Under the pieces are notes generated by a model, which saw only the letters and a program-made list of their open reading frames with translations, searched no databases and was not told the origin of the DNA. The position numbers and the translations under genes were made by a program. From Solitalea lacus (lineage in GTDB: Bacteria; Bacteroidota; Bacteroidia; Sphingobacteriales; Sphingobacteriaceae), in assembly GCF_022014595.1 (NCBI RefSeq), contig NZ_CP091740.1, positions 3,274,200 to 3,338,199 of the forward strand: 64,000 nt of DNA. Reading direction: 5' to 3'. Below, one piece after another: positions 10,802-56,770 of the stretch; within the stretch, counting starts at the first letter, position 1; each line of letters begins with the position of its first letter.

Positions 10802-10867
10802 CAAAATTATCGCTTGATAAACTTTTTCAGACTGCATTTTCTCAATTAAAAAGTTGATTTTTATCAA
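10802..10867 (-). promoter_or_regulatory. Twin-box promoter of the sulP operon
   Basis: Minus strand: distal box TTGATAAAAATCAA (10854-10867, a perfect palindrome that extends to 10850-10871), proximal box TTGAGAAAATGCAG (10832-10845, weak), and -7 element TAATTTTG whose last base is 10802. Distances from box centres to that base are 58.5 and 36.5 bp, as at the other regulon promoters. A TAATTTTG also reads on the plus strand at 10794-10801 and could serve the divergent crp gene, placing the strong box in its leader. Confidence 0.75.
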
Positions 10868-10892
10868 CTTTAAAAGATTAGATTTCATTAAG

Positions 10893-11603
10893 ATGAGCAT
10901 ACAAGGTATTTTCCCTATCGAAAAGTGGAATTTCCGGTCCGATTCAATATTAGCCGACCTCCCTGCTGAAGAATATGCACTACTCTATAAGAATATAATT
11001 GAGCAACATTATAAAAAGGGAGAGATTATTTTTAAAGAGGGAGCGGTTGCTTTTGGTATTTATTTCATCAGACAAGGAAAGGTAAAAAAATACAAGATCG
11101 ACAAGGATGGAAAGGAACAGATCATCTATGTGGCCAACAGTGGGGATCTGATTGGCTACCATGCCATACTTTCTAATGAACGCTACCAGGATACGGCAGC
11201 CACAATCGAAGACTGTTCGATAGCCTTTATTCTTAAAGAAGACTTTTTAGCAACATTGGACCAATCACCATTACTGGCCAAGCGTTTATTGCGAGCATTA
11301 AGTCATGAGTTTACCGTTTTGGCCAACAGTGTTTCAGTTCTTGCCAGGCATTCAGTAAGGGAGCGTTTGGCAATTACGTTAATTGTATTAAGAGAAAAAT
11401 ATAAAACAGAATCGGGGGAGGCTAATGAAGCAGTAATCAACTTATCACGAAATGATTTAGCGAGCATGGTAGGCACCGCAGAAGAAAATGTCGTCCGATT
11501 GCTTAAAGATTTTAGAACAGAAGGACTTATTGAAACAAAGGGCCGAATGATACTGATCAAGGATGTGAAGAAATTGGTGAAAATATCAAATTATCAATTC
11601 TAG
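10893..11603 (+). CDS. Crp/Fnr-family regulator, candidate master of the twin-box regulon
   Basis: 236 aa from ATG 10893 (frame open from TTG 10854, which would start inside the operator). A cNMP-binding-like beta-roll covers about residues 20-130, a dimer helix follows, and the winged helix reads NDLASMVGTAEENVVRLLKDF. The Glu and Arg of the recognition helix align with FNR Glu209 and Arg213, which read the TGA half-site; the FNR Ser212 position is Val. No cysteine cluster, so no Fe-S FNR. It diverges from sulP across a perfect TTGAT-N4-ATCAA site, suggesting autoregulation. It is one of two Crp-like proteins here that could bind the shared boxes. Confidence 0.85.
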   Translation: MSIQGIFPIEKWNFRSDSILADLPAEEYALLYKNIIEQHYKKGEIIFKEGAVAFGIYFIRQGKVKKYKIDKDGKEQIIYVANSGDLIGYHAILSNERYQDTAATIEDCSIAFILKEDFLATLDQSPLLAKRLLRALSHEFTVLANSVSVLARHSVRERLAITLIVLREKYKTESGEANEAVINLSRNDLASMVGTAEENVVRLLKDFRTEGLIETKGRMILIKDVKKLVKISNYQF

Positions 11604-11815
11604 AATTGCTACCGTGTTTTAATTATGGATTGATCATTGAACACCTCACTAAGTGAATTTTCAAAGTCATTATACCCTTGTCTATTTTAAGTGGTAGCTG
11701 TGTAAAGATTAACTTAGCTAAAAAAGTCTTACAATAACGATATCTCGAAAAAGGTAAGAATTCTTTCTAAAAACCAAAAAGCAGCCATTGCCCCAATAAT
11801 ATATAAACTTATCCA

Positions 11816-12060
11816 TTAAAGTTGTTGTTGTTGTTTCTGTAACAAATGGTGTATAACACGGATCACCAATAAAACGACAAAAACAAAAATCAGCTGGCCT
11901 ATCTCCACTCCAACATTGAAAAGAAACAATGCTAGTGGAATTGACTGTTGAGGCAAACCCATACTTGCTAATGCACCTTCAACACTTCTGCAACAGTTGC
12001 CGAGGTTTTGGGAATGAGACAGAAGTATCAGACAAACCGGACCCATCGATCAGGATGATC
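11816..12060 (-). pseudogene. HupE/UreJ-like membrane protein remnant
   Basis: The frame encodes ALASMGLPQQSIPLALFLFN and then VGVEIGQLIFVFVVLL, which matches the C-terminal half of HupE/UreJ_2-type membrane proteins (pattern GLPQ-x-x-I-P-L-A-L-x-x-F-N-x-G-V-E-I-G-Q). The preceding glycine-rich helix is scrambled (LGNCCRSVEG), as after a frameshift, and no N-terminal half is present. Judged a decayed gene; about 60 recognisable residues remain. Confidence 0.55.
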
Positions 12061-12092: not shown

Positions 12093-12158
12093 CTGACAAT
12101 AATCACCTCATCTGTTTGCAAACGTCATAAAACCTCAATAAAACCACCGATACCTTTG
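12093..12158 (+). promoter_or_regulatory. Twin-box promoter of the first USP operon
   Basis: Distal box CTGACAATAATCAC (12093-12106), proximal half-site GTCAT at the right end of 12115-12128, and -7 element TACCTTTG (12151-12158). The distal centre lies 58.5 bp before the last G; the proximal GTCAT ends 22 bp before the TA. Confidence 0.75.
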
Positions 12159-12630: not shown

Positions 12631-12641
12631 TAATTGTACAA

Positions 12642-13967: not shown

Positions 13968-14489
13968 TTATTCGAATGCTATATGAATATTAGCTTTCTG
14001 GTTAACTTCAAATTCGGCCAGTTGCGACAAACGATCGTCTATGTGTTTTTCAACAATTTCAGCTTGATGAAAAAGTTGTGCTTCTTTGGTCTTTTTCAGC
14101 AAGTGCGCAAAGGAAGTTACAGTTCCGTACACACTTATTTTATAATGGTTAATTTCCTGAATAGAAGACAATAAGCATACATCTAAAACCTCTGTATTAG
14201 CACAGCTATTAATCTTGCATTCTGTTTCTTTAATAAATGCTTTCATTGCCTCATTCAAATCAGTAACCTGCAAAATACCTTCCTCCCGGAAAAAAGTTTC
14301 CAATTTCTCAGTTTGCTGATGGATGTTTTCCGTATACTTTTTCAACACCTCTTTGAGCTTTAATAATGAAGCTTTGTTAATCCACATGGGCAACACTTTA
14401 TATAACTGCAATTCACCATCGGCAATTTTTTTTAATTCATAAATCATCAAATCATGTAGTGTGATGATCGAGTGATTTTTCTTTTCCAT
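13968..14489 (-). CDS. DUF892 (YciE/YciF-like) ferritin-fold stress protein
   Basis: 173 aa, four-helix-bundle pattern. It has TLHDLMIYELKKIADGELQL near the N-terminus, as in DUF892 proteins (L-x-D-x-x-x-x-E-L-x-x-x-x-x-x-E), and repeated Glu/His residues on helices (for example QQTEKLETFF and EINHYKISVYGTV). The family belongs to the ferritin-like superfamily and is induced by stress, though metal binding in individual members is unproven. Its minus-strand promoter carries twin boxes shared with the NUDIX gene. Confidence 0.8.
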   Translation of the reverse strand: MEKKNHSIITLHDLMIYELKKIADGELQLYKVLPMWINKASLLKLKEVLKKYTENIHQQTEKLETFFREEGILQVTDLNEAMKAFIKETECKINSCANTEVLDVCLLSSIQEINHYKISVYGTVTSFAHLLKKTKEAQLFHQAEIVEKHIDDRLSQLAEFEVNQKANIHIAFE

Positions 14490-14508: not shown

Positions 14509-14574
14509 TAAATTTATTAAGGTCAGAAAGAACAGTCAATGACTATAATCACGGTTTGTTTTGACTCTACTCAT
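14509..14574 (-). promoter_or_regulatory. Twin-box promoter of the DUF892 gene
   Basis: Minus strand: distal box ATGAGTAGAGTCAA (14561-14574), proximal box GTGATTATAGTCAT (14539-14552), -7 element TAAATTTA with last base 14509. Distances 58.5 and 36.5 bp. The same two boxes read in the opposite order for the NUDIX promoter. Confidence 0.75.
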
Positions 14575-14604
14575 GTATAAAAAGGGGCAGTTGCTGTTTT
14601 TTTG
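14539..14604 (+). promoter_or_regulatory. Twin-box promoter toward the NUDIX gene
   Basis: Distal box ATGACTATAATCAC (14539-14552), proximal box TTGACTCTACTCAT (14561-14574), and TTTTTTTG ending at 14604 exactly 58.5 bp from the distal centre. The TA of the -7 element is not conserved, so this is the weakest -7 match. A leader of about 155 nt would follow. A further palindrome ATGATTAGAATCAA lies at 14735-14748, 15 bp before the start codon. Confidence 0.5.
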
Positions 14605-18797: not shown

Positions 18798-19808
18798 ATG
18801 GCCAAACAAGCAATAAGTAATATCAAACTCGGTGTATTTGTACTAGCGGGGTTACTCCTACTGGTGTTTACGCTGTACATGATCGGCAAAAACCGCAACC
18901 TGTTTGGCAATACCATTCAATTAAAAGCCCATTTTGATGATGTTTATGGCCTAATGCCCGGAAATAATGTACGATTTTCCGGCATTCAGGTGGGAACAGT
19001 GAGAAAAGTTAACATTATAAACGATACGGTGATAGAAGTATCGATGGAAGTAGATGAAGCTGTGAAGAAATTCATTCAAAAGAATGCCATTGTAGCAATT
19101 GGAACCGATGGACTGATGGGAAACAAAGTCATTAATATTTCTCCCGCCCAGCAAACTTCTCAGGTGGTAAGCGATGGAGATATTCTACGAACGAGAAAAA
19201 CACCCAATACCGACGAAATGCTGCAAACTTTCTACAAGACTAATAACAACCTAGCTGTAATAACTGAAGATTTAAAAACCACCGTTCAACGCATCAATAA
19301 CAGCAAAGGTTTATGGAGTATATTAAATGACAGCACACTATCAGTTGATTTAAAAGCCTCAATGATCAATATTAGAACAGCTTCAGGTCAGGTAAAAGCC
19401 TTTACCAGTGATCTTCAAAAGTTGATTGCTGATGTAAAACACGGTAAAGGATCAGTAGGAGCTTTGTTAACTGATACAAGTTTTTCTTCCAATCTGAATA
19501 AAGCAGTTACCCAAATCAAACTGGTAAGCAACAATGCCAATTTACTTGCGGAAGAACTTAATAAAGTAGTGCAGGAGGTATCGAACGGAAAAGGAACGGT
19601 CCATGCTTTATTAAAAGATTCTGTGCTCGCCGTGAAACTTAACAGCAGTCTTACCAATATTGAAAAAGGTACTGCTGCTTTCAACGAAAACATGGAAGCG
19701 CTAAAGCACAGCGCATTATTAAGAGGGTATTTTCGAAATCAGGAAAAACAGCAGCCGAAGAAGAAGAAGAAGATGTCGAAATCTGATACCAATCAGGATA
19801 CCAATTGA
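18798..19808 (+). CDS. mlaD: MlaD-like MCE-domain lipid-binding protein
   Basis: 336 aa. One N-terminal membrane helix (about 9-29), then an MCE domain (about 37-115) with VYGLMPGNNVRFSGIQVGTV, and a long helical tail with GKGSVGALLTDTSF and GKGTVHALLKDS repeats. Ends in a Lys-rich tail. It is the periplasmic ring subunit that handles lipid. The 3' end of the gene overlaps the two operator boxes used by the downstream phosphorylase promoter. Confidence 0.9.
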   Translation: MAKQAISNIKLGVFVLAGLLLLVFTLYMIGKNRNLFGNTIQLKAHFDDVYGLMPGNNVRFSGIQVGTVRKVNIINDTVIEVSMEVDEAVKKFIQKNAIVAIGTDGLMGNKVINISPAQQTSQVVSDGDILRTRKTPNTDEMLQTFYKTNNNLAVITEDLKTTVQRINNSKGLWSILNDSTLSVDLKASMINIRTASGQVKAFTSDLQKLIADVKHGKGSVGALLTDTSFSSNLNKAVTQIKLVSNNANLLAEELNKVVQEVSNGKGTVHALLKDSVLAVKLNSSLTNIEKGTAAFNENMEALKHSALLRGYFRNQEKQQPKKKKKMSKSDTNQDTN

Positions 19809-19847
19809 TAGCGATCATTTTTAATCCTTTAAAGTTTGGTAAACTTG
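19783..19847 (+). promoter_or_regulatory. Twin-box promoter of the phosphorylase-prs-ATPase operon
   Basis: Distal box CTGATACCAATCAG (19783-19796) lies inside the mlaD coding end; proximal box TTGATAGCGATCAT (19805-19818) overlaps its stop codon. -7 candidate TAAACTTG (19840-19847), 57.5 bp from the distal centre, one base off the rule. Confidence 0.65.
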
Positions 19848-19866
19848 AGCCGAGTGGCTGATTAGA

Positions 19867-19904: not shown

Positions 19905-21425
19905 ATGCAATCACATCATCATCCCAAAAGTCTACTCCGCTTCCGTTCATTAGGCATTGATACGAAGCAAGAATTAGTTGTATTTATGCCTAAGAGTTGC
20001 TATGTATGTCAATCCGAAGGATTTCAGGCTTTAACTAGGTTAAATGTAGGGCTAAACAACTGCAATATTATAGCTACCCTCAATACAACAGAAAATGGGT
20101 TATTAAATGATGGAGAAATAAGCTTATCGATTAGTGCCATCAAAAAATTAGGTGTAAAAGATGGTGATTTTTTGTGGGTAGATCATTTGGACCCCCTAGA
20201 ATCCATGACCTATGTAAGATCAAAATTATTTGGCAATGCATTAAATCAGGAAGCCCTATCGGCAATTATCAGCGATGTTGCCGAAGAAAAGTATTCTAAC
20301 ATTTACCTTTCTTCATTCGTTTCTGCCTGTTCAGGGGATAACATGAACCCGGAAGAAATCTGTTACCTCACCAAGGCTATGATTGAAACGGGAAACAAGT
20401 TAAGTTGGGATGAGCGAATAATAGCCGATAAGCATTGCGTTGGAGGGATACCAGGTAACCGAACTAGTATGATTGTTGTTCCTATAATTGCGTCCTTAGG
20501 TATTACAATTCCAAAAACATCTTCCAGAGCGATTACATCACCTGCCGGAACTGCAGATACAATGGGTGTGATTACCAATGTGAATCTAAGTATGCAAGAG
20601 ATGCAAAAAGTAGTGAAGAAAGAAAAAGGATGCATTGTTTGGGGAGCGGCTGTAAAGCTAAGCCCTGCTGACGATATAATTATAAAAATTGAAAAGGCTT
20701 TGGATATTGATAGTGAAGGTCAAATGGTTGCTTCAATTTTATCAAAAAAAGTAGCAGCAGGTTCTACTCATTGTGTAATTGACATCCCAGTTGGAACTAC
20801 TGCAAAAGTGAGAAGTACTGAAAATGCATTAATATTAGCGGCCCAAATGGAGAAGGTTGCAAAATACATCGGATTAAAAATTAACATTATTTTCACAGAC
20901 GGTTCGCAGCCGGTTGGCTTCGGAATAGGACCGGCCTTGGAAGCCCGAGATGTGCTTTCTGTTTTGAGAAATGAAGATAAATCTTCAAAAGAATTAAGAT
21001 CCAGAGCACTGAAGATTTCTGCAGCCATTATCCATTTGGTAAAGAATGAATCTGAGGAATCAGCATACAGGATTGCAGAGAAACAATTAAGTTCAGAAGC
21101 TGCTTATCAAAAATTATTAGCCATTTGCGAAGCCCAAGGTGGTTTTAACGAACCGAAAACAGCTAAATACATTAAAATAGTTGAAGTCCAAACAGATGGT
21201 ATTATCAAGGAAATCGACAATAGAAAAATAGCAAGAGTGGCCAAGTTGGCTGGTGCGCCGGATGTATCGGTGGCCGGTGTTGATTTTTTTGTGCAGCTAA
21301 ATCAGAAAGTTGAAAAAGGACAACCCTTATTTTCTATACATGCCAACTCTCCTGGAGAATTGGAATATGCTTATGATTACTATAAACGTGGCAATCACCA
21401 AATAATCCATTTAAATGATGAATAA
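19905..21425 (+). CDS. Thymidine phosphorylase-family / AMP phosphorylase-like enzyme
   Basis: 506 aa, the length of archaeal AMP phosphorylases rather than the about 440 aa of classical DeoA. It has KHCVGGIPGNRTSMIVVPI (phosphate site), then SSRAITSPAGTADTMGV, and GKIARVAKLAGAP-like C-terminal elements. An N-terminal about 90-residue domain precedes the catalytic part, as in AMP phosphorylase. The likely reaction is phosphorolysis of a nucleoside or nucleoside monophosphate, releasing base and ribose phosphate. It overlaps prs by 11 bp, which suggests linked ribose-phosphate metabolism. Confidence 0.85.
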   Translation: MQSHHHPKSLLRFRSLGIDTKQELVVFMPKSCYVCQSEGFQALTRLNVGLNNCNIIATLNTTENGLLNDGEISLSISAIKKLGVKDGDFLWVDHLDPLESMTYVRSKLFGNALNQEALSAIISDVAEEKYSNIYLSSFVSACSGDNMNPEEICYLTKAMIETGNKLSWDERIIADKHCVGGIPGNRTSMIVVPIIASLGITIPKTSSRAITSPAGTADTMGVITNVNLSMQEMQKVVKKEKGCIVWGAAVKLSPADDIIIKIEKALDIDSEGQMVASILSKKVAAGSTHCVIDIPVGTTAKVRSTENALILAAQMEKVAKYIGLKINIIFTDGSQPVGFGIGPALEARDVLSVLRNEDKSSKELRSRALKISAAIIHLVKNESEESAYRIAEKQLSSEAAYQKLLAICEAQGGFNEPKTAKYIKIVEVQTDGIIKEIDNRKIARVAKLAGAPDVSVAGVDFFVQLNQKVEKGQPLFSIHANSPGELEYAYDYYKRGNHQIIHLNDE

Positions 21426-22296
21426 ACCTATCATATTTGCTTTGCCTGGTAACGAAGCATTGGCTCATTCGTTAATTGTTTCACTTAAGGCTGAAAAAGG
21501 AGAAGCAGAAATTCGTCGTTTCCCTGATGGAGAAAGTTATATAAAAGTTAAAAGTGATCTAACTGATAAAGATGCGATACTTGTTTGCACATTGCATCAG
21601 CCTGATGATAAACTGCTATCTCTTTATTTTTTTTGTAACACATTAAAAGATTTTGGCGCAAAGAAAATAACATTGATAGCCCCTTATTTGGCTTACATGC
21701 GCCAAGATAAGCTATTCAATCCCGGTGAATGCATTACATCTGAACTTTTTGCCAAATTGATATCATCTTTGGTAGATAAATTGATAACAATTGACCCTCA
21801 TTTGCATCGCAGAACTGGTTTAGATGAAATTTATTCAATACCAACTCAAGTTCTGCATGTCGCCACATTAATCTCCCTCTGGATAAAAGAAAATTTAACA
21901 AATGCTGTTTTAATAGGCCCTGACAGTGAAAGTGAACAGTGGGTGTCTGCTGTTGCAAAAGCAGCTGACAGTAAATATCTGATATTGGAGAAAACCAGGC
22001 GAAGTGATAACGAAGTAACCATCAAAGTGCCTGAAGTAGTCCAACCGGATCTGCATACCCCTGTTTTGGTGGATGATATTATTTCAACGGGTATCACAAT
22101 GGCCGAAACAATAAAGCAGTTGATAAAGACAGGCTACAGGTCACCAGTATGTATTGGGGTGCATGGAATTTTTGCTACCAATGCCTATGAACGCCTCCTA
22201 AAAAGTGGTGCAGACCGAGTGATAACAACCAACACCATTCCACATCCAACAAATCAGATAGCAATTGATGAATTAATCAGAACCGCATTGCAATAA
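21415..22296 (+). CDS. prs: Ribose-phosphate pyrophosphokinase (PRPP synthetase)
   Basis: 293 aa. ATP/ribose-5-phosphate regions include YLAYMRQDKLFNPGE and TIDPHLHR, and the PRPP loop is VLVDDIISTGITMAE (about residues 219-233). It is shorter than the roughly 315 aa housekeeping enzyme and likely a stress-island paralogue. The start overlaps the phosphorylase stop, so translation is coupled. It makes PRPP, the substrate used by phosphoribosyltransferases such as that at 36317. Confidence 0.88.
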   Translation: MMNKPIIFALPGNEALAHSLIVSLKAEKGEAEIRRFPDGESYIKVKSDLTDKDAILVCTLHQPDDKLLSLYFFCNTLKDFGAKKITLIAPYLAYMRQDKLFNPGECITSELFAKLISSLVDKLITIDPHLHRRTGLDEIYSIPTQVLHVATLISLWIKENLTNAVLIGPDSESEQWVSAVAKAADSKYLILEKTRRSDNEVTIKVPEVVQPDLHTPVLVDDIISTGITMAETIKQLIKTGYRSPVCIGVHGIFATNAYERLLKSGADRVITTNTIPHPTNQIAIDELIRTALQ

Positions 22297-22306
22297 TGAT
22301 GAATTA

Positions 22307-25659: not shown

Positions 25660-25727
25660 CTCAAATTTCTATTAATGCTTTCATTTGTTCCATGACCCAA
25701 ATCAGTTCTTAATTTGACAGTGCTCAT
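25660..25727 (-). promoter_or_regulatory. Twin-box promoter toward the DUF2231-like gene
   Basis: Minus strand: distal box ATGAGCACTGTCAA (25714-25727), proximal box CTGATTTGGGTCAT (25692-25705), -7 candidate GAAATTTG with last base 25660. The distance is 60.5 bp, two more than the rule, and the TA is missing, so this one is less certain. Confidence 0.5.
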
Positions 25728-25757
25728 GCAAATCGGAATACCTTCTGGTTAAATTTA
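25692..25757 (+). promoter_or_regulatory. Twin-box promoter of the lactate dehydrogenase gene
   Basis: Distal box ATGACCCAAATCAG (25692-25705), proximal box TTGACAGTGCTCAT (25714-25727), -7 element TAAATTTA (25750-25757). Distances 58.5 and 36.5 bp exactly. Confidence 0.75.
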
Positions 25758-34955: not shown

Positions 34956-35021
34956 TAAAATTAATTCTCTTATTGCTTAAAAAGTATGATGTTAATCAAC
35001 CCAACTACTGATTATAAGCTA
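34956..35021 (-). promoter_or_regulatory. Twin-box promoter of ftsH
   Basis: Minus strand: distal box TAGCTTATAATCAG (35008-35021; only the right half ATCAG is good), proximal box TTGATTAACATCAT (34986-34999, strong), -7 element TAATTTTA with last base 34956. Distances 58.5 and 36.5 bp exactly. Confidence 0.65.
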
Positions 35022-35034: not shown

Positions 35035-35100
35035 TTGATTAAAATCAGTTTACCTGCTATTTTCCGTCATAAATCTTTCTATAAACTAAGTGTAGTTTTG
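35035..35100 (+). promoter_or_regulatory. Twin-box promoter of the second USP gene
   Basis: Distal box TTGATTAAAATCAG (35035-35048), proximal right half GTCAT (end of 35057-35070), -7 element TAGTTTTG (35093-35100). Distances 58.5 and 36.5 bp. ATG follows 24 bp after the last G. Confidence 0.8.
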
Positions 35101-37690: not shown

Positions 37691-37756
37691 CTAAAATATC
37701 CTACTTTATTACCTGCGGCAATGATTTGAATCAGGTCATACCGTGATACTTCTCAT
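37691..37756 (-). promoter_or_regulatory. Twin-box promoter of the hydrolase-phosphoribosyltransferase operon
   Basis: Minus strand: distal box ATGAGAAGTATCAC (37743-37756), proximal box CTGATTCAAATCAT (37721-37734), -7 element TATTTTAG with last base 37691. Distances 58.5 and 36.5 bp exactly. Confidence 0.75.
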
Positions 37757-37786
37757 TAATAAAACGCTGGTTTTAAGCTTTATTTG
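37721..37786 (+). promoter_or_regulatory. Twin-box promoter of the erythromycin-esterase-like gene
   Basis: Distal box ATGATTTGAATCAG (37721-37734), proximal box GTGATACTTCTCAT (37743-37756), -7 element TTTATTTG (37779-37786). Distances 58.5 and 36.5 bp. The same pair serves the opposite direction. Confidence 0.75.
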
Positions 37787-39793: not shown

Positions 39794-39859
39794 ATGACGA
39801 AACTCATCTTTCATCCTGATCCACATCGTTGACTAGGAAAACTTCCTAACATAATTTTG
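39794..39859 (+). promoter_or_regulatory. Twin-box promoter of hsp20
   Basis: Distal box ATGACGAAACTCAT (39794-39807), proximal box CTGATCCACATCGT (39816-39829), -7 element TAATTTTG (39852-39859). Distances 58.5 and 36.5 bp exactly. Confidence 0.75.
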
Positions 39860-43176: not shown

Positions 43177-44454
43177 ATGAAAAATAAACCTGCAGTGCTT
43201 GCTGGTTCTAATACAACTAGTCAATTTGAAGCCCTTTTTGATCATGCTTCCATTGGAATTATTTTTACAGATCAGAAAGGTAAAATCGTCAATTTTAATC
43301 ACCAGGCGGAGTTACAATTTGGATATCACAAACATGAGGTTTTGGGTAAATTAATTGAACTATTAATTCCCCAACAGTTTCACTCTAAACATTTAGAATA
43401 CAGAAAAGATTTCTATGATCACCCTCAAAACCGGCCCATGGGAACCGGCAGGGATCTATATGCCAAAAAAAAAGATGGAAGCGAATTTCCTGTAGAAGTC
43501 AGCCTTTGTCTTTACCGGACAATTGAGGAAATGCAGATAATTGCTTTTGTTACTGATATTACTGTACGCAAGCGAAAGGAAGAATTGTTGCTTCAACAAC
43601 AGGAGGAGCTCCATAGATTTTCAACGAAAGTAAGACAACTGAACCGCGAACTGGAGCAAAAGGTTGAAGACCGTACCAAAATGCTACGAGAAACATTGGC
43701 TGAATTGGAAAAATCGAAGGATAAGTTGAATGAGGCCCTTGAAAAAGAAATAGAACTAAGCGATTTGAAATCGCGATTTGTAACCCTGGCCTCTCATGAG
43801 TTTCGTACCCCGCTTAGCACCATCTTATCTTCTGCAGCCTTAATTGGGCGGTATAATACACAAGAGGATCAGGGGAAAAGGTCAAAACACATTCAACGTA
43901 TTAAAAGTTCAGTTGCTTCCTTGAAAAGCATTCTTGAAGATTTCTTGTCTCTCGGTAAACTTGAAGAAGGTTGCCTACAGGCAAAAATGGAAATAACCCA
44001 AACAGAAATATGTTGTACAGAAATTGAGGATGTTATTCAGGACATGCAGCAGATCGTAAAACCAGGACAGATCATCAATTTTACCCATGGGGGAAAAAGT
44101 GAAGCAATAATAGACATTGCTCTCTTGAAAAATATAGTAGTGAATTTAATTTCAAATGCCATTAAGTTTTCTCCCGAGAATTCAATTATTCATGTAGTAT
44201 GCAATGTTACTGATAACGACTTGGTGCTCATAGTAAAAGACAATGGTATCGGTATTTCAGAGGAGGATCAACAGCATTTATTTGAACGGTTTTTCCGGGC
44301 AAAAAATGCTACAAACATACAAGGCACCGGTTTGGGATTGAATATTGTTGCAAAATACCTTGAACTGATGAGCGGTAGCATTGAAATTCAGAGCAAACTA
44401 AATGAAGGGTCAACCTTTACTGTTTACGTACCACAAATAAATCATAATTCTTAA
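43177..44454 (+). CDS. PAS-domain sensor histidine kinase
   Basis: 425 aa, no membrane segment, so cytosolic. PAS domain about 15-130 (FDHASIGIIFTDQKGKIVNF; KKKDGSEFPVEVSL), similar in layout to FixL-type PAS but without a clear heme histidine that I can assign. A coiled coil (about 135-195) leads to HisKA with the phosphorylated His207 in LASHEFRTPLS; the HATPase has NLISNAIKFSPE, DNGIGIS and GTGLGLNIV. Three bases separate it from the response regulator, so they form a pair. Confidence 0.92.
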   Translation: MKNKPAVLAGSNTTSQFEALFDHASIGIIFTDQKGKIVNFNHQAELQFGYHKHEVLGKLIELLIPQQFHSKHLEYRKDFYDHPQNRPMGTGRDLYAKKKDGSEFPVEVSLCLYRTIEEMQIIAFVTDITVRKRKEELLLQQQEELHRFSTKVRQLNRELEQKVEDRTKMLRETLAELEKSKDKLNEALEKEIELSDLKSRFVTLASHEFRTPLSTILSSAALIGRYNTQEDQGKRSKHIQRIKSSVASLKSILEDFLSLGKLEEGCLQAKMEITQTEICCTEIEDVIQDMQQIVKPGQIINFTHGGKSEAIIDIALLKNIVVNLISNAIKFSPENSIIHVVCNVTDNDLVLIVKDNGIGISEEDQQHLFERFFRAKNATNIQGTGLGLNIVAKYLELMSGSIEIQSKLNEGSTFTVYVPQINHNS

Positions 44455-44457: not shown

Positions 44458-45516
44458 ATGCTAAAAATATTATTAATTGAAGATAATCAAGATGTTAGAG
44501 AAAATACGGCAGAAATCCTGGAGCTTTCCAATTATAAAGTTTTAACCGCCGATAACGGCAAAACAGGAGTTGAAGTTGCTTTACATGAAAAACCTGATCT
44601 CATTATTTGCGACATCATGATGCCATTACTGGATGGCTACGGGGTGTTGCACCTTTTGAGCAAGAATAAAGAAACAGCGAGCATTCCTTTTATTTTCCTA
44701 ACAGCAAAATCTGAAAAATCCGATTTCAGAAAGGGAATGGAAATGGGAGCCGACGACTACTTAACCAAACCTTTTGATGACATCGATCTGCTAAAGGCTA
44801 TAGAAATGAGGTTAAAGAAAGCAAAGCTTTTGCAACAGGGATTTAGTGGGGATGCAAAAGGAATAAAGGATTTTATTGAATATGCAAAAGGAATGGGCAA
44901 TGTTCAATTTACTACTAAAGGAAGCGAAACTTACAGTTATAAAAGGAAACATTCGCTCTATGAAGCAGGGCACCGGCCCACGGCTGTTTATTTTATTGTT
45001 AAAGGGAAAATTAAAACTTATAAGATCAACGAAGAAGGCAAAGAACTCATCACTGCCATCTACGGTCCCGGCGATTTTATTGGCTATATGGCCATTTTAC
45101 ATGAAGTTAACTATATTGATAATGCGGAGATTTTGGAAGATGCGGAGTTGATGCAGATCCAAAAACAAGATTTTTTGCAACTGATCACTACCAACACTCA
45201 AATAGCCCATCAATTCATCAAGCTGTTAACCCGAAACGTTCTGGAAAAAGAAGAAAAGCTATTAACCCTTGCCTATAATTCCCTGCGAAAGCGCGTGGCC
45301 AATGGCTTGCTGCAGGTGGCCGATAAGCTTAAAAATAACGAAGAGAATAAACCCATTATCGAATTATCAAGGGAAAATCTTGCCCATGTGATCGGTACGG
45401 CAACAGAGTCGCTCATCAGAACCTTAAGTGATTTTAAAAGCGAAAAACTAATCGACATTATCGAGGGAAAAATTATTCTCCTGGAAAAGGAGAAGCTTAA
45501 AAATCTTTTGTATTAA
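44458..45516 (+). CDS. Response regulator fused to a Crp/Fnr DNA-binding protein (REC-CRP)
   Basis: 352 aa. Receiver domain 1-120 with phospho-acceptor Asp52 (IICDIMMPLLDGYG), Thr82 and Lys104. A short linker leads to a cNMP-like beta-roll (about 150-265) and a Crp winged helix with NLAHVIGTATESLIRTLSDF. The recognition-helix Glu and Arg match those of the Crp/Fnr protein at 10893, so both may read TGA half-sites. Phosphorylation by the adjacent kinase probably controls it. The last 53 bp of the gene are copied by the transposon's 165-bp repeat, but this copy keeps its stop. Confidence 0.93.
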   Translation: MLKILLIEDNQDVRENTAEILELSNYKVLTADNGKTGVEVALHEKPDLIICDIMMPLLDGYGVLHLLSKNKETASIPFIFLTAKSEKSDFRKGMEMGADDYLTKPFDDIDLLKAIEMRLKKAKLLQQGFSGDAKGIKDFIEYAKGMGNVQFTTKGSETYSYKRKHSLYEAGHRPTAVYFIVKGKIKTYKINEEGKELITAIYGPGDFIGYMAILHEVNYIDNAEILEDAELMQIQKQDFLQLITTNTQIAHQFIKLLTRNVLEKEEKLLTLAYNSLRKRVANGLLQVADKLKNNEENKPIIELSRENLAHVIGTATESLIRTLSDFKSEKLIDIIEGKIILLEKEKLKNLLY

Positions 45517-45628
45517 AAGCTCAACTCTTAAAACTAAAATTATGGAGAAGGAAAAAGTTATATTTTGGAGAAATTTTCTTTTTCGGACATTTCTCATCGG
45601 TGTTTTATTTGCCATCATCCTTTTTATT
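45464..45628 (+). repeat. Left 165-bp direct repeat flanking the IS element
   Basis: Identical to 47234-47398. It contains the end of the REC-CRP gene, the 25-bp spacer and the first 29 codons of the small membrane protein gene. Confidence 0.97.
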
Positions 45629-45673: not shown

Positions 45674-47233
45674 ATATCAGTATTTTACAGTTTTGAAAAC
45701 CGTAATTTGTCGCACTAAGCTTAAATTATGCTACGAATTCGAACTGTTACGACTGCCTCAGGAGCAAAGGCTGTTCAGGTAATTTATTATTATAAGCGAA
45801 AAAGGGTAGTCTACAAGCATATCGGTTCAGGAAGGTCAGAGGCGGAAGTCGAATCTCTTATGTTGGTCGCGCAGGATTTCATCGACAATTACACACCGAG
45901 CTTGCCGTTCAAGGAGGAAACAAAGTTTGACAATTTGATTTTCCTGGACAGAGCGCAGTTTTTAGGTGTACATTATACCTTTTTATATGAAGTACTTTCG
46001 AAAGTCGTCAACAAGGTCGGTCTATCCTATATCAAGAAACCACTATTGTTGGATCTTGTCATTATGCGGATCTTAGAGCCTGCTTCAAAATTGCGATCTA
46101 TAGAGCTGATGGATACCTATTTTGGCATTCGTCATCGAAGGCAGAGCTTTTATAAGTCAGCCAGGGATTGGCTGGAGCTGAAGCAGGATGTCGAACAGAT
46201 CGTTGTTGCCTTCGCAAAGAGCAGCTACGCGTTCAATTTCGAGCTGTTGTTCTATGATGTAACCACCTTGTATTTCGAGACTTTTGAGGAAGACGAGCTC
46301 AGGGAGAATGGCTTCTCTAAAGACAATAAATCACAACAACCCCAGATATTGGTTGCTTTGATGGTGACCAAAGAAGGCTTCCCTGTATCCTATGAGGTGT
46401 TCTCCGGCAGCACATTTGAGGGGCACACGATCCTTCCCGTCGTACAGAAGTTCATCCGCAAGCATGGCGTTGCCAATTTTACCATCGTCGCAGATGCGGC
46501 CATGATAAGTTCGGTCAATGTCCAGGCATTGGTCGAAAGTAATATCAATTATATCGTAGGTGCAAGACTGGGGAATCTTTCGAGTCCCTTGATCGAACAA
46601 ATCGATCGCTCTCTCAAGAGAGAAGACGGCCATAGCATCAGGATAAAAACCGATAATGGATATCTGATATGCAGTTATTCGGCAGTACGATACAAAAAAG
46701 ATAAGTACGAAATGGAAAAGCAGATACAGAAAGCAGAAACGATTATCCAGACTCCCTCAAAGGGTAAGAAGACAAAGTTTACCAAATCGAGAGGCGAAGT
46801 ATTAGAACTCAACCGTACGCTGATCCAAAAAACGAAAAAATTGTTGGGAATAAAAGGGTATTACACTAATCTGGAAGAAAGTGTTGCTGACAACAATACG
46901 ATAATAGGGCATTATCACGAACTGTACAGGATTGAACAGGCTTTTAGGATATCTAAAAGCGATCTTCAGACCAGACCAATTTTCCATTACAAAGAAGAGC
47001 CTATAAACCTTCACTTATTGGTCTGCTTCATGTCGCTAGTAGTATCCAAACATATTGAATTGTCAACCGAAGTATCTATAAAAAAGTTCGTAACCGAATT
47101 GAAAAAGATCACGGACGCCAGGATGGTGAATGGAATTACAGGGAAGGAAATACGCATTAGGGCCAAAATAACGCCGTTAATCGAAAAATTGGTGCAAAAT
47201 CTAAAACTGCCGCACTAAAAGGGACAAGTCAGG
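45629..47233 (+). mobile_element. IS1634-family insertion sequence with 165-bp target duplication
   Basis: 1605 bp. Terminal inverted repeats CCTGACTTGTCC (45629-45640) and GGACAAGTCAGG (47222-47233) are perfect over 12 bp. Sub-terminal TTGTCGCACTAA occurs twice near the left end and a GCCGCACTAA-like copy near the right. One transposase gene fills the element. The flanking duplication of 165 bp is far longer than the usual 2-14 bp; long, variable direct repeats are a known property of IS1634 itself. Confidence 0.93.
45728..47218 (+). CDS. IS1634-family DDE transposase
   Basis: 496 aa, intact. N-terminus LRIRTVTTASGAKAVQVIYY typical of the family; catalytic blocks FYDVTTLYFET (first Asp), IVADAAMISS (second Asp) and YRIEQAFRISKSDL (Glu). 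Apparently full length with no frameshift, and the flanking repeats are still identical, so the insertion is recent and the element may be active. Confidence 0.92.
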   Translation: MLRIRTVTTASGAKAVQVIYYYKRKRVVYKHIGSGRSEAEVESLMLVAQDFIDNYTPSLPFKEETKFDNLIFLDRAQFLGVHYTFLYEVLSKVVNKVGLSYIKKPLLLDLVIMRILEPASKLRSIELMDTYFGIRHRRQSFYKSARDWLELKQDVEQIVVAFAKSSYAFNFELLFYDVTTLYFETFEEDELRENGFSKDNKSQQPQILVALMVTKEGFPVSYEVFSGSTFEGHTILPVVQKFIRKHGVANFTIVADAAMISSVNVQALVESNINYIVGARLGNLSSPLIEQIDRSLKREDGHSIRIKTDNGYLICSYSAVRYKKDKYEMEKQIQKAETIIQTPSKGKKTKFTKSRGEVLELNRTLIQKTKKLLGIKGYYTNLEESVADNNTIIGHYHELYRIEQAFRISKSDLQTRPIFHYKEEPINLHLLVCFMSLVVSKHIELSTEVSIKKFVTELKKITDARMVNGITGKEIRIRAKITPLIEKLVQNLKLPH

Positions 47234-47398
47234 AGGGAAAAATTATTCTCCTGGAAAAGGAGAAGCTTAAAAATCTTTTGTATTAAAAGCTCAACTCTTA
47301 AAACTAAAATTATGGAGAAGGAAAAAGTTATATTTTGGAGAAATTTTCTTTTTCGGACATTTCTCATCGGTGTTTTATTTGCCATCATCCTTTTTATT
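47234..47398 (+). repeat. Right 165-bp direct repeat flanking the IS element
   Basis: Exact copy of 45464-45628. It supplies the spacer and 5' end of the small membrane protein gene, leaving that gene whole. Confidence 0.97.
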
Positions 47399-47593: not shown

Positions 47594-48448
47594 TTATGAA
47601 TATTGAGATCCATGCTTGCAAATCCCTCTGCTTTCATTCAAAATTTTCTGTAATCTACCTCTTGAAATTCCAATTTTTGTAAGAAGCGAAGGATCGACAC
47701 AAATTTCTTTACAAAGAATAACTCCCTGTTCAAGCAATTTTGTTTTTTCAGCACCGGCGAGTGTGGTTAAACAGGTAACAGGATACAGACCTTCTTTATC
47801 AATTAGTTCGCGCAAACTTTCGTTTTGAGGGTAATCCCAGCCCAACAAGTACAGACCGGCACATTTGCCATATTCTATGGCATCTGATGAAAATTTGGTA
47901 TTGGTTACTACCCATCCTCTGTTAAACTTAGTTTTATAATTGAGGCCTCTCTCCCACTGATCTTCCACATCTTTAAACCGGGAATGGATGTAGAGTGGAA
48001 TTTTCACATCGCATATGTAACCCGGTTGATTATGAAACTTACATTCAATCATAAAGAGTTTATCATCCTTTTCCGCAATAATATCAATCTCATGATTCAC
48101 ACAATGCCCTTTAATAATAACATTAAGATCCGTTTTGAATCCCTGAAATTTCAAGAGCTCTGCCAGGAACTTTTCGAATGGGAAACCCGAAGGACCTAAC
48201 TGCATAATTGCTTGTTTCAGGTTATATTTTGCAGAGGTGTAATTCGTTTGTTTTTTCAACAACTTAAATGCAATATTATAGATTTCTTTGGTAGTGCTTC
48301 CATTAACGAGTTGGCTGCTTACTTTATCAACTATTGCATTAATCTCAGCATCACTCGCCCCCGCTCGTTTTAAAGAGAGTCCAAGTTTTTGAGCTGAGAA
48401 AGGAACAATTTCTCCCGATGCTTTTTCAATTAACAAAGATGATTTCAT
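47594..48448 (-). CDS. ATP-cone domain fused to a PD-(D/E)XK (Mrr-like) nuclease domain
   Basis: 284 aa. Residues about 1-90 form an ATP-cone (IEKASGEIVPFSAQKLGLSL, as in ribonucleotide reductases and NrdR). Residues about 90-210 form a restriction-endonuclease-like domain: EIDIIAEKDDKLFMIECKFH gives the D ... E-x-K active site, with QWERGLNYKTKFNRGWVVTN downstream. A C-terminal helical tail follows. Known family logic: the ATP-cone senses ATP/dATP, so the nuclease could be nucleotide-gated. It follows the unknown gene at 48475 by 26 bp. Confidence 0.82.
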   Translation of the reverse strand: MKSSLLIEKASGEIVPFSAQKLGLSLKRAGASDAEINAIVDKVSSQLVNGSTTKEIYNIAFKLLKKQTNYTSAKYNLKQAIMQLGPSGFPFEKFLAELLKFQGFKTDLNVIIKGHCVNHEIDIIAEKDDKLFMIECKFHNQPGYICDVKIPLYIHSRFKDVEDQWERGLNYKTKFNRGWVVTNTKFSSDAIEYGKCAGLYLLGWDYPQNESLRELIDKEGLYPVTCLTTLAGAEKTKLLEQGVILCKEICVDPSLLTKIGISRGRLQKILNESRGICKHGSQYS

Positions 48449-48930: not shown

Positions 48931-48996
48931 CAAATATATTCATGAAAAAAAGTAATAAACACGATCGTAATCAGCTGAAAAGATGAGTTTGGTCAG
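48931..48996 (-). promoter_or_regulatory. Twin-box promoter of the unknown/ATP-cone nuclease pair
   Basis: Minus strand: distal box CTGACCAAACTCAT (48983-48996), proximal box CTGATTACGATCGT (48961-48974), -7 element TATATTTG with last base 48931. Distances 58.5 and 36.5 bp exactly. The proximal right half ATCGT is shared with hsp20. Confidence 0.78.
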
Positions 48997-49922: not shown

Positions 49923-50762
49923 TCAGTTTATATGATCAGTTTTTACTGCTATTGAATGCAAATTCATAATTACCAGTTGGGCTAAAATATTAATCTTCGC
50001 TTTTTCTTTTTCATGTGACAAGTGATGTAATAAGACTCTTAGTTGTTTCTTTTCTTCGTCACTAATTTCACTGGCAATACCCTGATGTAAAAATGAAACG
50101 GAAACGCACAAATCATTAAACTGCTCCAACTCAGCAACAACACTTTTTATAATTTTAATTTCTTCTTCATTCCATACATAGACTGGAAAGGGCCGTTGCA
50201 ATTCTTTCTCAAACGTGCTGAAATTATGGAGGAGATCTTTTAATTTCTTGCGGATAAGATGCAAGTCGTCATCACTGTTATGATTATTGTGAATAAGTGC
50301 ATCCAGCTCGGTTATTTTTTCTTGCACAAAATTCTCGATTGCTTTTAAATGGATAACATTCGGCAATTCTTTTTTAATAATTTTTTCAGCATCAAACCAG
50401 GGATTGAAAGAAAGCTCCTTCCTTAATCTGTCTTTCCAATTGTCAAGCTCGCTTTCTAGCAGCAGCATGTATTTATAAGGCTTCTTTCTTTCATTTTTTG
50501 CAGCGTTATAAATGCGATGTATATGCAATTGTAAGTTTCTAATAATACCAGCCTTGCCATATACCTCTTTTATTCCCGCAGGTAAGAACAGATCAGTATC
50601 CGATTCATAACCTGCCATTCTAAGAAAGGCTCTGAACCTTTTTATTTCACACCACAAAAGAATAAGATCATCAAACTGCAATTCAGGCTCCATTTTTCTG
50701 GCACACTTCCTGAAAAATTTAAAAAACTTTTCAATAACGACCCGCACCTCATGATTGTTCAT
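49923..50762 (-). CDS. CHAD-domain protein
   Basis: 279 aa, all helical. DDLHLIRKKLKDLLHNFSTF is the conserved His-x-x-R-x-x-x-R/K-x-L pattern of CHAD domains, and the N-terminal half has a similar WCEIKRFRAFLRMAG. Family knowledge: CHAD binds inorganic polyphosphate. It has a twin-box promoter with a leader of about 130 nt. Confidence 0.72.
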   Translation of the reverse strand: MNNHEVRVVIEKFFKFFRKCARKMEPELQFDDLILLWCEIKRFRAFLRMAGYESDTDLFLPAGIKEVYGKAGIIRNLQLHIHRIYNAAKNERKKPYKYMLLLESELDNWKDRLRKELSFNPWFDAEKIIKKELPNVIHLKAIENFVQEKITELDALIHNNHNSDDDLHLIRKKLKDLLHNFSTFEKELQRPFPVYVWNEEEIKIIKSVVAELEQFNDLCVSVSFLHQGIASEISDEEKKQLRVLLHHLSHEKEKAKINILAQLVIMNLHSIAVKTDHIN

Positions 50763-51095
50763 AATTACTTAATACTGGAAATATTTAGTCCTATCAACCT
50801 CAGTAAATAATTCATTCTGTAATTGTTGTTCAACGCCCAACAATCCATGTCCGAGATAAGAAATCATCTATGCTGGAGCACTTTTAAAGGCAGTTATAAA
50901 TTTAACCTGAAGGCATCCGGATATGCATGAGCACAATCAAATCATGGTCTGATTCGGGTCATGATGTAAGTAACAATTGATGATTGATCCAGGAGTAGAA
51001 ACTATACAAATACTACACCCCCAACCTTAAATGATTTAAATGTTCAATATTGACGGCATTAATTTATTACATAATACCGCCTATCAGAAGTTTTA
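50763..51095. other. Regulatory intergenic region, no gene
   Basis: 333 bp between the CHAD gene and the stop of the NADP-reductase gene. Holds the twin-box promoter of CHAD (50897-50962); the rest shows no supported feature. Confidence 0.5.
50897..50962 (-). promoter_or_regulatory. Twin-box promoter of the CHAD gene
   Basis: Minus strand: distal box ATGACCCGAATCAG (50949-50962), proximal box TTGATTGTGCTCAT (50927-50940), -7 element TAAATTTA with last base 50897. Distances 58.5 and 36.5 bp exactly. Confidence 0.75.
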
Positions 51096-52314: not shown

Positions 52315-52411
52315 AACAAACATGATCCTGACGAAAAACACCTTGGCTCGTGACTTTGATCACATTATAACACACAAAAACCCTGTAAACTTGTAAGAAA
52401 AACATAGAAAA

Positions 52412-54583: not shown

Positions 54584-54633
54584 AGAACTGAAATTACTTT
54601 TATTGATTTTGCAGATACTTCTCCAAATGTTGT

Positions 54634-56379
54634 TTATTCAATGCAAACCTTGCAAGCTTTCACGCTGCTTTTAATCCCTTTTTCAAGTACTTGTTTCCCT
54701 TTTGAGTGATAACGAAAAATGGTAATGCCTTTCGCCTTTTCTCGCCATGCGGTTCTATAAATATAATCAACGGTTGAAATGCTTGCATCCTCAGTCAAGT
54801 TAATGGTTTTCGAAACTGCATTATCGGTGTATTTTTGAAATACCACTTGATGTTTGAGGTGCCATTCAGGAGAAATCTCAAGGGCAGTTTTAAAAATATT
54901 TTTAACCGATTCAGGGAGTTCATTCACATTTCTAGCAATCCCTTCCACTTTAACCTGTTCAATAATATTTTCTGAATAGAGGTTATTTCGATAAAGATAT
55001 TCAATAAATAAGCTGTTAATCTCAGCCAAACTTTCATTATTTAAAACATGATTACGCTGATAAGCTAATGCGAAGAGGGGTTCAATGGACGAAGAGGTGT
55101 TGGCAAGGATCGAGATAGTGCCAGTGGGTGCAATACTTAACCTGGTTGCATTCCGTATAGATGTTTGGGGATAATAGATACTTTGAGTCCAGTTTTTAAA
55201 TACGCCTCTTTGCGCTGCCAATTCAATGGAGGTATCGAAGCTTTTTTGCTGAATAAATTGCATTAATTTTTCTCCTAATTCTATTGCTGAGGTTGAATCA
55301 TAAGGAATTTCGAGTAAAATCAGCAGCTCAGCCCATCCCATAACTCCCAATCCTATTTTGCGGTTACCTTGTACAATTGTTTTAATCTCAGGCAACAGGT
55401 AATTATTCACTTCAATTACATTATCTAAAAAACGAGTTACAATTTTCACAATCTTCTCTAAATGGCGCCAATCAATAGTTCGTTTTCCGTTTGTTTCAAT
55501 TATAAATTTTGAAAGGTTAATGGAAGCCAGATTACATGATTCGTAAGGAAGTAATGGAACTTCGCCACAAGGATTAGTTGATTCAATATTCCCAATTTGA
55601 GGAATTGGATTTACTGCATTAATTGTATCCAGAAAAATTAACCCAGGATCACCGCTTTTCCAGGCACTTTCTACAATGTCATCCCAAAGTTTTTTTGATT
55701 CAATACTTTTTACTATTTCTTTTGTGTTGGGGTGAACTAGGTTCCACACCTCCCCCCTTTCTACTGCAACCATAAAAGCATCCGAAACTCCCACCGAAAT
55801 ATTGAAATTGGTTAGCACTCCTTTCTCTCTTTTGGTGCTAATAAATTCTTCAATATCTGGGTGCTCCACATTCAGGATTCCCATGTTGGCGCCTCTTCGT
55901 TTGCCACCTTGTTTAATGTATTCGGTAGCTGCGTCAAATATTTTCATAAAGGAAACAGGGCCGGATGCAGTGCCACCTGTAGCCGTTACCAAATCGTTTT
56001 GGGGTCGAAGGTGAGAGAAATTAAAGCCAGTTCCGCCTCCACTTTGCTGAATTAGGGCAGCCAATTTCAATGTACTGAAAATACTTTCCATACTATCCTC
56101 AACAGGTAAAACAAAACATGCACTTAGCTGATTAAGTTTGGTGCCAGCATTCATGAGTGTGGGAGAATTAGGAAGAAATAAAAGCTGGCTCAATGCCGAA
56201 TAAAATAGCTCTTCCCATTTTTCAGCATCGCTTGCCGTTCCCCAGTATATTTCCGCAGCGGCAATAGCTCTTGCCACTCTTCGAAATAAATCCTCAGGTG
56301 TTTCAAGAAACCCATCACTTTTCCTACGCAAGTACCTACATTGAAGTACTTTTAAAGCATTTGGAGATAAAGAAGTCAT
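54634..56379 (-). CDS. nrdJ: Class II (adenosylcobalamin-dependent) ribonucleotide reductase, short form
   Basis: 581 aa, shorter than typical NrdJ. LSPNALKVLQCRYLRRKSDG and FRRVARAIA at the start, then NSPTLMNAGT, SACFVLPVEDSMESIF, GGGTGFNFSHLRP, NPCGEVPLLPYESCNLASIN (active-site region), SIAPTGTISILANTSSSIEP, and a C-terminal KACKVCIE that may carry the reducing cysteine pair. It reduces ribonucleotides independently of oxygen, apt for an oxygen-limitation regulon. A GGAGG Shine-Dalgarno (56391-56395) precedes ATG 56379. Confidence 0.9.
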   Translation of the reverse strand: MTSLSPNALKVLQCRYLRRKSDGFLETPEDLFRRVARAIAAAEIYWGTASDAEKWEELFYSALSQLLFLPNSPTLMNAGTKLNQLSACFVLPVEDSMESIFSTLKLAALIQQSGGGTGFNFSHLRPQNDLVTATGGTASGPVSFMKIFDAATEYIKQGGKRRGANMGILNVEHPDIEEFISTKREKGVLTNFNISVGVSDAFMVAVERGEVWNLVHPNTKEIVKSIESKKLWDDIVESAWKSGDPGLIFLDTINAVNPIPQIGNIESTNPCGEVPLLPYESCNLASINLSKFIIETNGKRTIDWRHLEKIVKIVTRFLDNVIEVNNYLLPEIKTIVQGNRKIGLGVMGWAELLILLEIPYDSTSAIELGEKLMQFIQQKSFDTSIELAAQRGVFKNWTQSIYYPQTSIRNATRLSIAPTGTISILANTSSSIEPLFALAYQRNHVLNNESLAEINSLFIEYLYRNNLYSENIIEQVKVEGIARNVNELPESVKNIFKTALEISPEWHLKHQVVFQKYTDNAVSKTINLTEDASISTVDYIYRTAWREKAKGITIFRYHSKGKQVLEKGIKSSVKACKVCIE

Positions 56380-56770
56380 AATCCTTTGGACCTCCTATTT
56401 TTAAAATTCCTTACCAAGTTATTCAAAGCTATTACCAGTTAAAACGATGTTTTATGACAATGCTAAACCGACGCGCTGATTTTCGTCATCAAATTCTGAC
56501 TCAATTCGACTTGACAACTCTCTTTAATGACATCAGCAGATGTTAATAAACCACCCAAATTAAAAGTTTAGAATTATAAATACTTCAGGAATAAAGTGAT
56601 AGGGTCATGCTCTTAAAGAGAGCGAACGAAGAAGTTTGCTAACTGCAGAACTATAAAATTGGCCAATGGATAGGTGCTTACCTTGAATGGTTACTGTATG
56701 ACTGTTGAATGCACTTATTTTAGGAATTGAGACTAAAAATGAGCGATGAATTCTACAGTCTTGAAAAATA
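56380..56770. other. Upstream region of the ribonucleotide reductase
   Basis: Holds the twin-box promoter (56424-56489). The remaining 280 bp show no supported gene or motif. Confidence 0.45.
56424..56489 (-). promoter_or_regulatory. Twin-box promoter of the ribonucleotide reductase operon
   Basis: Minus strand: distal box ATGACGAAAATCAG (56476-56489), proximal box TTTAGCATTGTCAT (56454-56467, right half good), -7 element TAGCTTTG with last base 56424. Distances 58.5 and 36.5 bp exactly. Confidence 0.78.

Follow-up and report, generated by a model that had tools for sequence, protein, structure and literature searches.

A clustered regulon of paired CRP/FNR-type boxes in Solitalea lacus, with a receiver-CRP response regulator as its candidate activator

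Results

We analysed a 64,000-nucleotide stretch of the Solitalea lacus genome (assembly GCF_022014595.1, contig NZ_CP091740.1, positions 3,274,200 to 3,338,199; hereafter the window, to which coordinates refer unless another contig or locus is named) in which 16 promoter sites share one rigid layout: two CRP/FNR-type boxes 22 bp apart, set at a fixed distance from the Bacteroidota -7 element (consensus TGA-N6-TCA, N10, TGA-N6-TCA, N23, TAnnTTTG). The pattern is class-wide and not the habit of one genome, and in S. lacus the regulon is almost confined to an island of about 46 kb, since all 11 of the best matches in the genome lie there. The island is probably the regulon of a two-component system that would respond to oxygen (or NO/redox), and its candidate activator is a response regulator, encoded at 44458, that joins a receiver to a CRP/FNR-type output (REC-CRP).

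An initial annotation had proposed fifteen promoters with this pattern and read them as one regulon of CRP/FNR-type boxes at a fixed 22-bp spacing, coupled to the -7 element; all fifteen lie where it had placed them, and the sequence supports the reading. We seeded a fixed-spacing matrix for the two boxes and the -7 element with six sites; on convergence it contained 18 promoter readings of 27.5-44 bits, and the next-best score was 10.6. Because circularity was to be avoided, a second matrix was trained only on 153 non-coding sites from other organisms. It recovered 16 window sites at 20.1-32.7 bits, above a ceiling of 16.4 in 100 dinucleotide shuffles, namely the fifteen and one more at 52393(+) near an OsmC-like gene (Table 1). 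The remaining two of the 18 readings, at 50992(+) and 53280(+), scored 13.0 and 10.1 bits with this external matrix and were dropped. The distance between TGA-N6-TCA cores, counted exact and with at most one mismatch, peaks at 22 bp (10 window pairs; 30 shuffles averaged 0.2 pairs at this spacing and never exceeded 2 at any). The best -7 element stands at the exact spacing in 14 of the fifteen sites. Of the two spacing exceptions annotated initially, the phosphorylase promoter is indeed 1 bp short, but the DUF2231 promoter is not 2 bp long, as GAAATTTG lies there at the exact spacing.

Three double boxes each carry two divergent promoters (14509-/14604+, 25662-/25757+ and 37691-/37786+), the last bases of whose -7 elements are 95 bp apart, the sum of 58.5 and 36.5, and both readings of all three exceed the shuffle maximum with the external matrix. 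A chance origin of the pattern was rejected on the shuffles, the reversed-pattern controls and the external matrix, and RNA-based control was rejected on the absence from the window of any Rfam family at gathering score and of any tRNA.

Table 1. Double-box promoter sites and candidate regulatory genes in the window
Positions	Strand	Feature	Genes	Remarks
10802..10866	-	double box + TAATTTTG	SulP-like transporter (9057-10613)	24.0 bits; weak proximal box
10854..11603	+	plain CRP/FNR-family regulator		Pfam, relatives; no N-terminal cysteine cluster by eye; candidate local/secondary regulator
12094..12158	+	double box + TACCTTTG	12175, then Usp 12642, TerB-like 13570	22.6 bits; weak proximal box; no Pfam family found in the 12175 product ("USP" in the initial annotation)
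14509..14573	-	double box + TAAATTTA	DUF892 (13968-14489)	both matrices; box common to 14540..14604
14540..14604	+	same double box reversed + TTTTTTTG	14764 (NUDIX by initial annotation only)	both matrices
19784..19848	+	double box + TAAACTTG, ending 1 bp early at 19847	thymidine/AMP phosphorylase-like 19905, prs 21415, P-type ATPase 22307	both matrices
25662..25726	-	double box + GAAATTTG	DUF2231 (25129-25641)	32.7 bits, best in window; box common to LDH promoter
25693..25757	+	same double box + TAAATTTA	D-2-hydroxyacid (lactate) dehydrogenase-like 25814-26824	family below NCBIfam cut-offs
34956..35020	-	double box + TAATTTTA	FtsH (33006-34946)	weak distal box
35036..35100	+	double box + TAGTTTTG	USP-like 35124-35948 (label of initial annotation)	both matrices
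37691..37755	-	double box + TATTTTAG	hydrolase 37010 / PRTase-like 36317	both matrices; box common to 37722..37786
37722..37786	+	same double box + TTTATTTG	erythromycin-esterase-like 37808-39142	far below EreB cut-off
39795..39859	+	double box + TAATTTTG	Hsp20-like 39903	both matrices
43177..44454	+	PAS histidine kinase		Pfam, AlphaFold; PAS model nearest FixL/EcDOS heme PAS; candidate sensor
44458..45516	+	response regulator REC-CRP: receiver + cNMP-binding fold + Crp helix-turn-helix		Pfam; candidate activator
48931..48995	-	double box + TATATTTG	unknown 140-aa protein 48475 / ATP-cone-Mrr 47594-48448	both matrices
50897..50961	-	double box + TAAATTTA	CHAD (49923-50762); hemerythrin-like 49064 downstream	both matrices
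52329..52393	+	double box + TAAACTTG	OsmC-like open reading frame (ORF) 52631	20.2 bits; absent from initial annotation; weakest assignment, with a long leader of 238 bp
56424..56488	-	double box + TAGCTTTG	B12-dependent (class II) ribonucleotide reductase (RNR) 54634	both matrices; PfkB-type kinase 53639 downstream

The clustering emerges from a scan of the whole S. lacus genome, a single contig of 4,402,230 bp, with the 18 fixed positions of the pattern. The 11 matches on which the near-confinement rests carry no more than one mismatch; when three are allowed the count is 16+11, against 4+4 for the reversed pattern. Putative further sites elsewhere lie at 1398296, 1399730, 2887442 and 3267671. 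Outside the island there is apparently a separate regulon of single boxes. The single-box pattern has 18+18 matches, eight in-window double sites included, against 6+5 in the control, and 20 of the 36 were inspected, with genes named from similarity by eye. Perfect single boxes at N23 precede a ccoI-like (C1:2245992) and a ccoN-like (2405784) gene, and a third has no long ORF behind it; one-mismatch boxes at the same spacing precede Usp-like (1331115) and hemN-like (977139) genes. The organism's own FNR-like gene (C1:2245291) is followed by a single box exactly N23 from TAGTTTTG, and then by the ccoI-like gene.

Among 60 genomes, S. lacus included, 51 carry a site at no more than two mismatches and six relatives have at least 10 sites on at least one strand; the reversed pattern matched eight times in all 60. 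We further examined the best 80 loci of 586 confirmed ones, drawn from a search of named genomes in which 22 aligned REC-CRP proteins served as the query. Their titles are nearly all Bacteroidota (Chitinophagaceae, Pontibacter, Rufibacter, Dyadobacter, Larkinella, flavobacterial metagenome-assembled genomes (MAGs) and others); two MAGs are named as proteobacteria, and one title gives only an uncultured bacterium. Over the 1.377 Mb of these loci, 83 exact TGA-N6-TCA pairs are spaced by 22 bp, spread over 43 of the 80 loci, against seven at 23 bp and a median of one at other distances; TAnnTTTG stands at offset 23 in 29 of 166 orientations, and no other offset has more than two. Allowing two mismatches gives 160 sites in 61 loci, of which 132 have a gene start within 350 bp and only six fall within coding sequence. 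Beyond the class, five of 149 genomes have one match each, and the reversed pattern matched once in all 198 genomes scanned across the phylum.

A class II CRP/FNR activator box is canonically centred at -41.5. If the start map of Flavobacterium psychrophilum, which places the TAnnTTTG box at -12 to -5 (PMC9723704), applies here, the last base of the -7 element is at -5 and the boxes would therefore be centred at -41.5 and -63.5, 2 bp from the -39.5 and -61.5 first annotated. The distal box abuts the proximal one two helical turns upstream, so that two dimers could occupy the same face of the helix, and the promoters have no visible -33 element. Conservation of the 18 search positions is built into the search, but it also extends beyond them, to Y at -66/-44, R at -61/-39 and T at -35, while most spacer positions vary. 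The extended box, TGAY-N4-RTCA, is an FNR-like site. The two boxes differ slightly, the distal one having an A-rich centre and mostly A at -61, the proximal one G or A at -39. When one core mismatch is tolerated, the 80 loci contain 142 pairs, and 24 of them are flanked by a -7 element on either side. Divergent contexts account for 14 of these (among 62 pairs) and tandem contexts for 10 (among 66); random 8-mers pass the same criterion at a rate of 5.4%.

A Pfam tally of the 131 genes that come first after a site in the 80 loci, taken over the top 25 of 91 families, is led by Usp (18), PAS_9 (16, with HisKA 15), COX1 (13), FixO (12) and E1-E2 ATPase (7), followed by HSP20 (6), GlutR_N, hemerythrin and YceI (4 each); an NCBIfam tally was swamped by kinase models and not used. 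Expressed as the share of genes that stand first behind a site, hsp20 reaches 6/8, ccoNO 13/20, ccoI 6/19, USP 14/39 and kinase genes 16/82, compared with 74/1001 for others. The targets elsewhere, comprising cbb3 oxidase, Usp, Hsp20 and heme-synthesis genes, are a low-oxygen set, to which the window adds FtsH, class II RNR and a PfkB-type kinase, all above NCBIfam cut-offs (RNR as TIGR02504), and SulP-, LDH- and esterase-like proteins, which are below them. In G016, a relative of a different genus, the esterase-like and hydrolase/PRTase promoter pair is likewise found at a bidirectional double box (L261).

Three side observations concern target genes. At 19905-25072 a phosphorylase-like gene, a ribose-phosphate diphosphokinase and a P-type ATPase stand in a row under one double box, an odd pairing of nucleotide and cation functions; the ATPase scores best against calcium types, below their cut-offs. 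With genes named by eye, G016 has a double box between hyp-like maturation and [NiFe]-hydrogenase-like genes (L260:6230-6325), and G025, which has no REC-CRP match, has one between truncated-hemoglobin-like and ccoN-like genes (L251:1211-1306).

The window contains three CRP-like genes (120, 10854 and 44458), and REC-CRP 44458 fits the sites best across genomes. Its cNMP-binding, Crp helix-turn-helix and receiver domains are recognized as PF00027 (2.8e-20), PF13545 (9.6e-13) and PF00072 (1.3e-29). In the alignment of 22 sequences D52 and K104 are invariant and T82 is found in at least 90%; C51, in the receiver domain, is the sole cysteine in invariant or near-invariant columns, and the N-terminal cysteine cluster is absent. 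The recognition helix of FNR reads E-x-x-S-R, and most of the 22 REC-CRP proteins have ETVSR, with E317 and R321 invariant. In 198 genomes of the phylum REC-CRP was found in 32, sites at no more than one mismatch in 31 and both in 21 (Fisher 2.8e-13, uncorrected for phylogeny), where some absences of REC-CRP may be misses, as the 10 best candidates per genome were scored. In 13 of the 21 genomes with both, REC-CRP and the nearest site are no more than 10 kb apart, and in eight no more than 1 kb. Of the 60 genomes, 51 have a site when two mismatches are allowed, and 34 of these also encode REC-CRP; of the nine lacking a site, only G019 does.

Similar results came from the REC-CRP loci themselves, scanned to at most 1.5 kb on each side for 30 of 46 matches listed, the S. 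lacus one included: 18 have a site at no more than two mismatches, and at three mismatches or fewer there are 25 matches as opposed to one for the reversed pattern. With all genes scanned, double boxes outnumber single ones in REC-CRP loci by 115 to 43. In G002, of the same genus, three sites were found at up to two mismatches, none of them more than 2.5 kb from REC-CRP, and one reads toward a kinase gene and REC-CRP.

In the 80-locus set 72 REC-CRP genes have a kinase gene immediately before them, as is the case in the window with kinase 43177. Pfam finds PAS, HisKA and HATPase domains in the latter; its PAS aligns to that of FixL (1d06) at 2.5e-12, with a histidine at the heme-ligand position, and the AlphaFold model of the domain (mean pLDDT 90.6) has FixL, EcDOS and a heme-binding one-component PAS as its 20 best PDB fold matches. 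Heme in the PAS of kinase 43177 is likely. The strict histidine motif is present in 47 of the 72 upstream kinases; in an alignment of 25 companion kinases (A3) H72 is invariant by construction, because these were picked for the motif.

Two side observations concern the neighbourhood of the CRP-like genes. The third of them, 120-758, known from the Pfam scan only, stands beside rhodanese-, metallo-beta-lactamase- and YeeE-type sulfur-like genes (120-7824, named by eye), perhaps a separate sulfide/persulfide module. Directly after REC-CRP, 166-nt perfect direct repeats (45463-45628 and 47233-47398) flank a transposase-like ORF at 45728-47218 (named by eye), the first copy including the last 54 nt of the REC-CRP gene. 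Long target duplications are made by the IS1634 group.

Discussion

Our model is as follows. As oxygen falls, the PAS kinase 43177, probably heme-loaded like FixL, would autophosphorylate and pass the phosphate to the receiver domain of REC-CRP 44458. Two REC-CRP dimers would then bind next to each other on one DNA face, at -63.5 and -41.5, and the proximal dimer would activate in class II fashion, by contact with RNA polymerase, at TAnnTTTG promoters, which show no separate -33 element. Being symmetric, a double box could fire two divergent promoters. The predicted outcome is joint induction of about 16 transcription units, including those for Usp, Hsp20, FtsH, the LDH-like protein, class II RNR and the PRTase-, hydrolase- and esterase-like proteins.

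Several observations weigh against this model. The window REC-CRP has ESLIR in its recognition helix and not the FNR-type ETVSR of the majority, its gene is 3.4 kb from the nearest site at no more than one mismatch, and neither matrix found a site before kinase gene 43177. In the 80 loci, REC-CRP genes stand first behind a site in only 1 of 81 cases, MlaE genes in 0 of 3 and LDH in 0 of 1. Among the 49 genomes of the class the association between REC-CRP and sites is weaker (21/11/5/12; odds ratio 4.6, p 0.02). Eleven of the 32 REC-CRP genomes have no site at one mismatch or fewer, nine of these 11 belonging to family f26, and ten genomes have a site and no REC-CRP match, five of them in the class and five outside it with a single match each. 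As for the sensor, matches to LOV and other PAS folds begin at rank 21 and have E-values almost as good, which means that heme is not proved by fold alone, and in some loci (L197, L199, L201, L205, L211, L213, L219 and L225) the N-terminus of the kinase looks by eye receiver-like instead of PAS. Since other kinases carry motif variants or such an N-terminus, the sensed signal may vary.

The plain CRP genes raise a related difficulty. Five of 15 plain-CRP loci have a site at up to two mismatches: that of 10854 in the window and four in genomes with no REC-CRP match (G038, G040, G052 and G026), where the gene for a CRP with N-terminal cysteines stops 2-25 bp short of the double box. REC-CRP is therefore not the sole protein that may use the architecture. 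In our reading two kinds of sensor share one operator architecture, yet the same loci also feed the alternative that the boxes are bound by an FNR-like protein of the plain kind, carrying an N-terminal Fe-S cysteine cluster, REC-CRP being a co-controlled neighbour or a modulator. The FNR-like consensus of the box would suit such a binder, as would the two CRPs with N-terminal cysteines in the S. lacus genome itself (L253, L254), but in S. lacus a single box stands at the corresponding place between the FNR-like gene and ccoI, ccoN has one as well, the best double boxes are confined to the island with REC-CRP, and sites track REC-CRP across the phylum, which together make this alternative unlikely.

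Two other explanations concern how the boxes are used. The distal box could be accessory or a leftover, the proximal box alone working in class II fashion, as might be expected from the single-box promoters of S. lacus at the identical N23 (perfect before ccoI and ccoN, one mismatch before Usp and hemN). However, a strong distal box is found where the proximal one is weak (sulP and USP 12158), the 83 exact pairs at 22 bp reveal strong constraint on the distal box, and the preponderance of double over single boxes in REC-CRP loci points the same way, so that we consider a purely class II operation improbable. We give very little credence to the idea that two different CRP-family proteins, for example REC-CRP and one of the 10854 type, read the two boxes. 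The slight difference between distal and proximal boxes and the three CRP-like genes of the window speak for it; but in the three window double boxes the box that is distal for one promoter serves the other as its proximal box, as follows from both readings passing the shuffle maximum, and the 24 near-exact pairs flanked by -7 elements on both sides repeat this elsewhere. Moreover, clear counterparts of 10854 are rare: among 60 relatives only G016 has one (55% over the full length, E 1.4e-86), the next match being in G040 (E 1.5e-57) and all others at E 9e-46 or weaker. The 14 kb around the G016 copy contain no double box at three mismatches or fewer, and for both reasons 10854 was set aside as a master regulator.

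The two-component model with REC-CRP invites comparison with the FixL-FixJ-FixK cascade of rhizobia, with which it shares a PAS kinase nearest the heme domain of FixL, a CRP/FNR-type end regulator and, in other genomes, targets that include cbb3 oxidase (COX1/FixO), cation ATPase and FixG_C genes. In rhizobia FixJ and FixK are separate proteins, FixJ consisting of a receiver and a LuxR/GerE-type output. Here, in contrast, receiver and CRP/FNR output are in one protein, whose output is a cNMP-binding domain with a Crp helix-turn-helix; the boxes come in tandem 22 bp apart, and the targets in S. lacus are mainly a stress set of Usp, Hsp20 and RNR. With FNR/Anr and class II/III CRP-FNR promoters the system has in common the TGAY-N4-RTCA box and, if the Flavobacterium map applies, the proximal position at -41.5. 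It departs from them in lacking the N-terminal cysteine cluster in REC-CRP, in the abutting second box at -63.5 and in the Bacteroidota -7 element with no visible -33.

The target set of the island also recalls what we take to be the DosR dormancy set. DosR/DevR of Mycobacterium is described as a hypoxia response regulator of the NarL subfamily (PMC3029386) that binds close-packed boxes cooperatively, the proximal box overlapping -35, and that has divergent target promoters and Usp and heat-shock targets (PMC3029386, PMC5069765). The response regulator, the close-packed boxes, the divergent promoters and the Usp/heat-shock targets are all paralleled here; the box and the phylum are different, and REC-CRP is not of the NarL type. 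Two-component control is shared as well with OsdR of Streptomyces, which is reported to have predicted sites before Usp genes clustered near its own gene (PMC5069765), and with NmpRSTU of Myxococcus, in which the NtrC-like NmpR acts on cbb3 and on a hemN-hemerythrin operon (PMC11841059), although regulator types, sensors and boxes are others. In all, we read the S. lacus system as one that may act like FixL-FixJ-FixK compressed into two proteins, with a promoter logic like that of DosR.

In a bolder form of this reading, which we find possible but hold only tentatively, the Bacteroidia would have a compressed FixL-FixJ-FixK in which a heme-PAS kinase and a receiver-CRP fusion work through adjacent dimers on a bidirectional 34-bp operator at -63.5 and -41.5. 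This pair would have been exchanged in evolution with an Fe-S FNR-like sensor, the output site being kept, and in S. lacus would be dedicated to a DosR-like dormancy island, the FNR-like protein keeping the single-box respiratory promoters. Our literature search found little on oxygen control in Bacteroidota, and no description there of paired boxes or of a receiver-CRP system, a weak absence given that it covered titles and the starts of abstracts under open licence. In one study, E. coli FNR/CRP and Bacteroides MalR matrices were applied to MAGs that include Flavobacteriales and Saprospiraceae (PMC8510549).

Altogether, a rigid promoter rule for genomes of this class yields testable regulons, among them cbb3 oxidase, Usp, Hsp20 and class II RNR, and comes with a named candidate regulator. 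If our model is true, another phylum would have arrived at a DosR-like logic of response regulator, paired boxes, divergent promoters and Usp/Hsp20 targets through a different protein family, and the Bacteroidia would offer a natural case of two sensor types acting on one promoter architecture.

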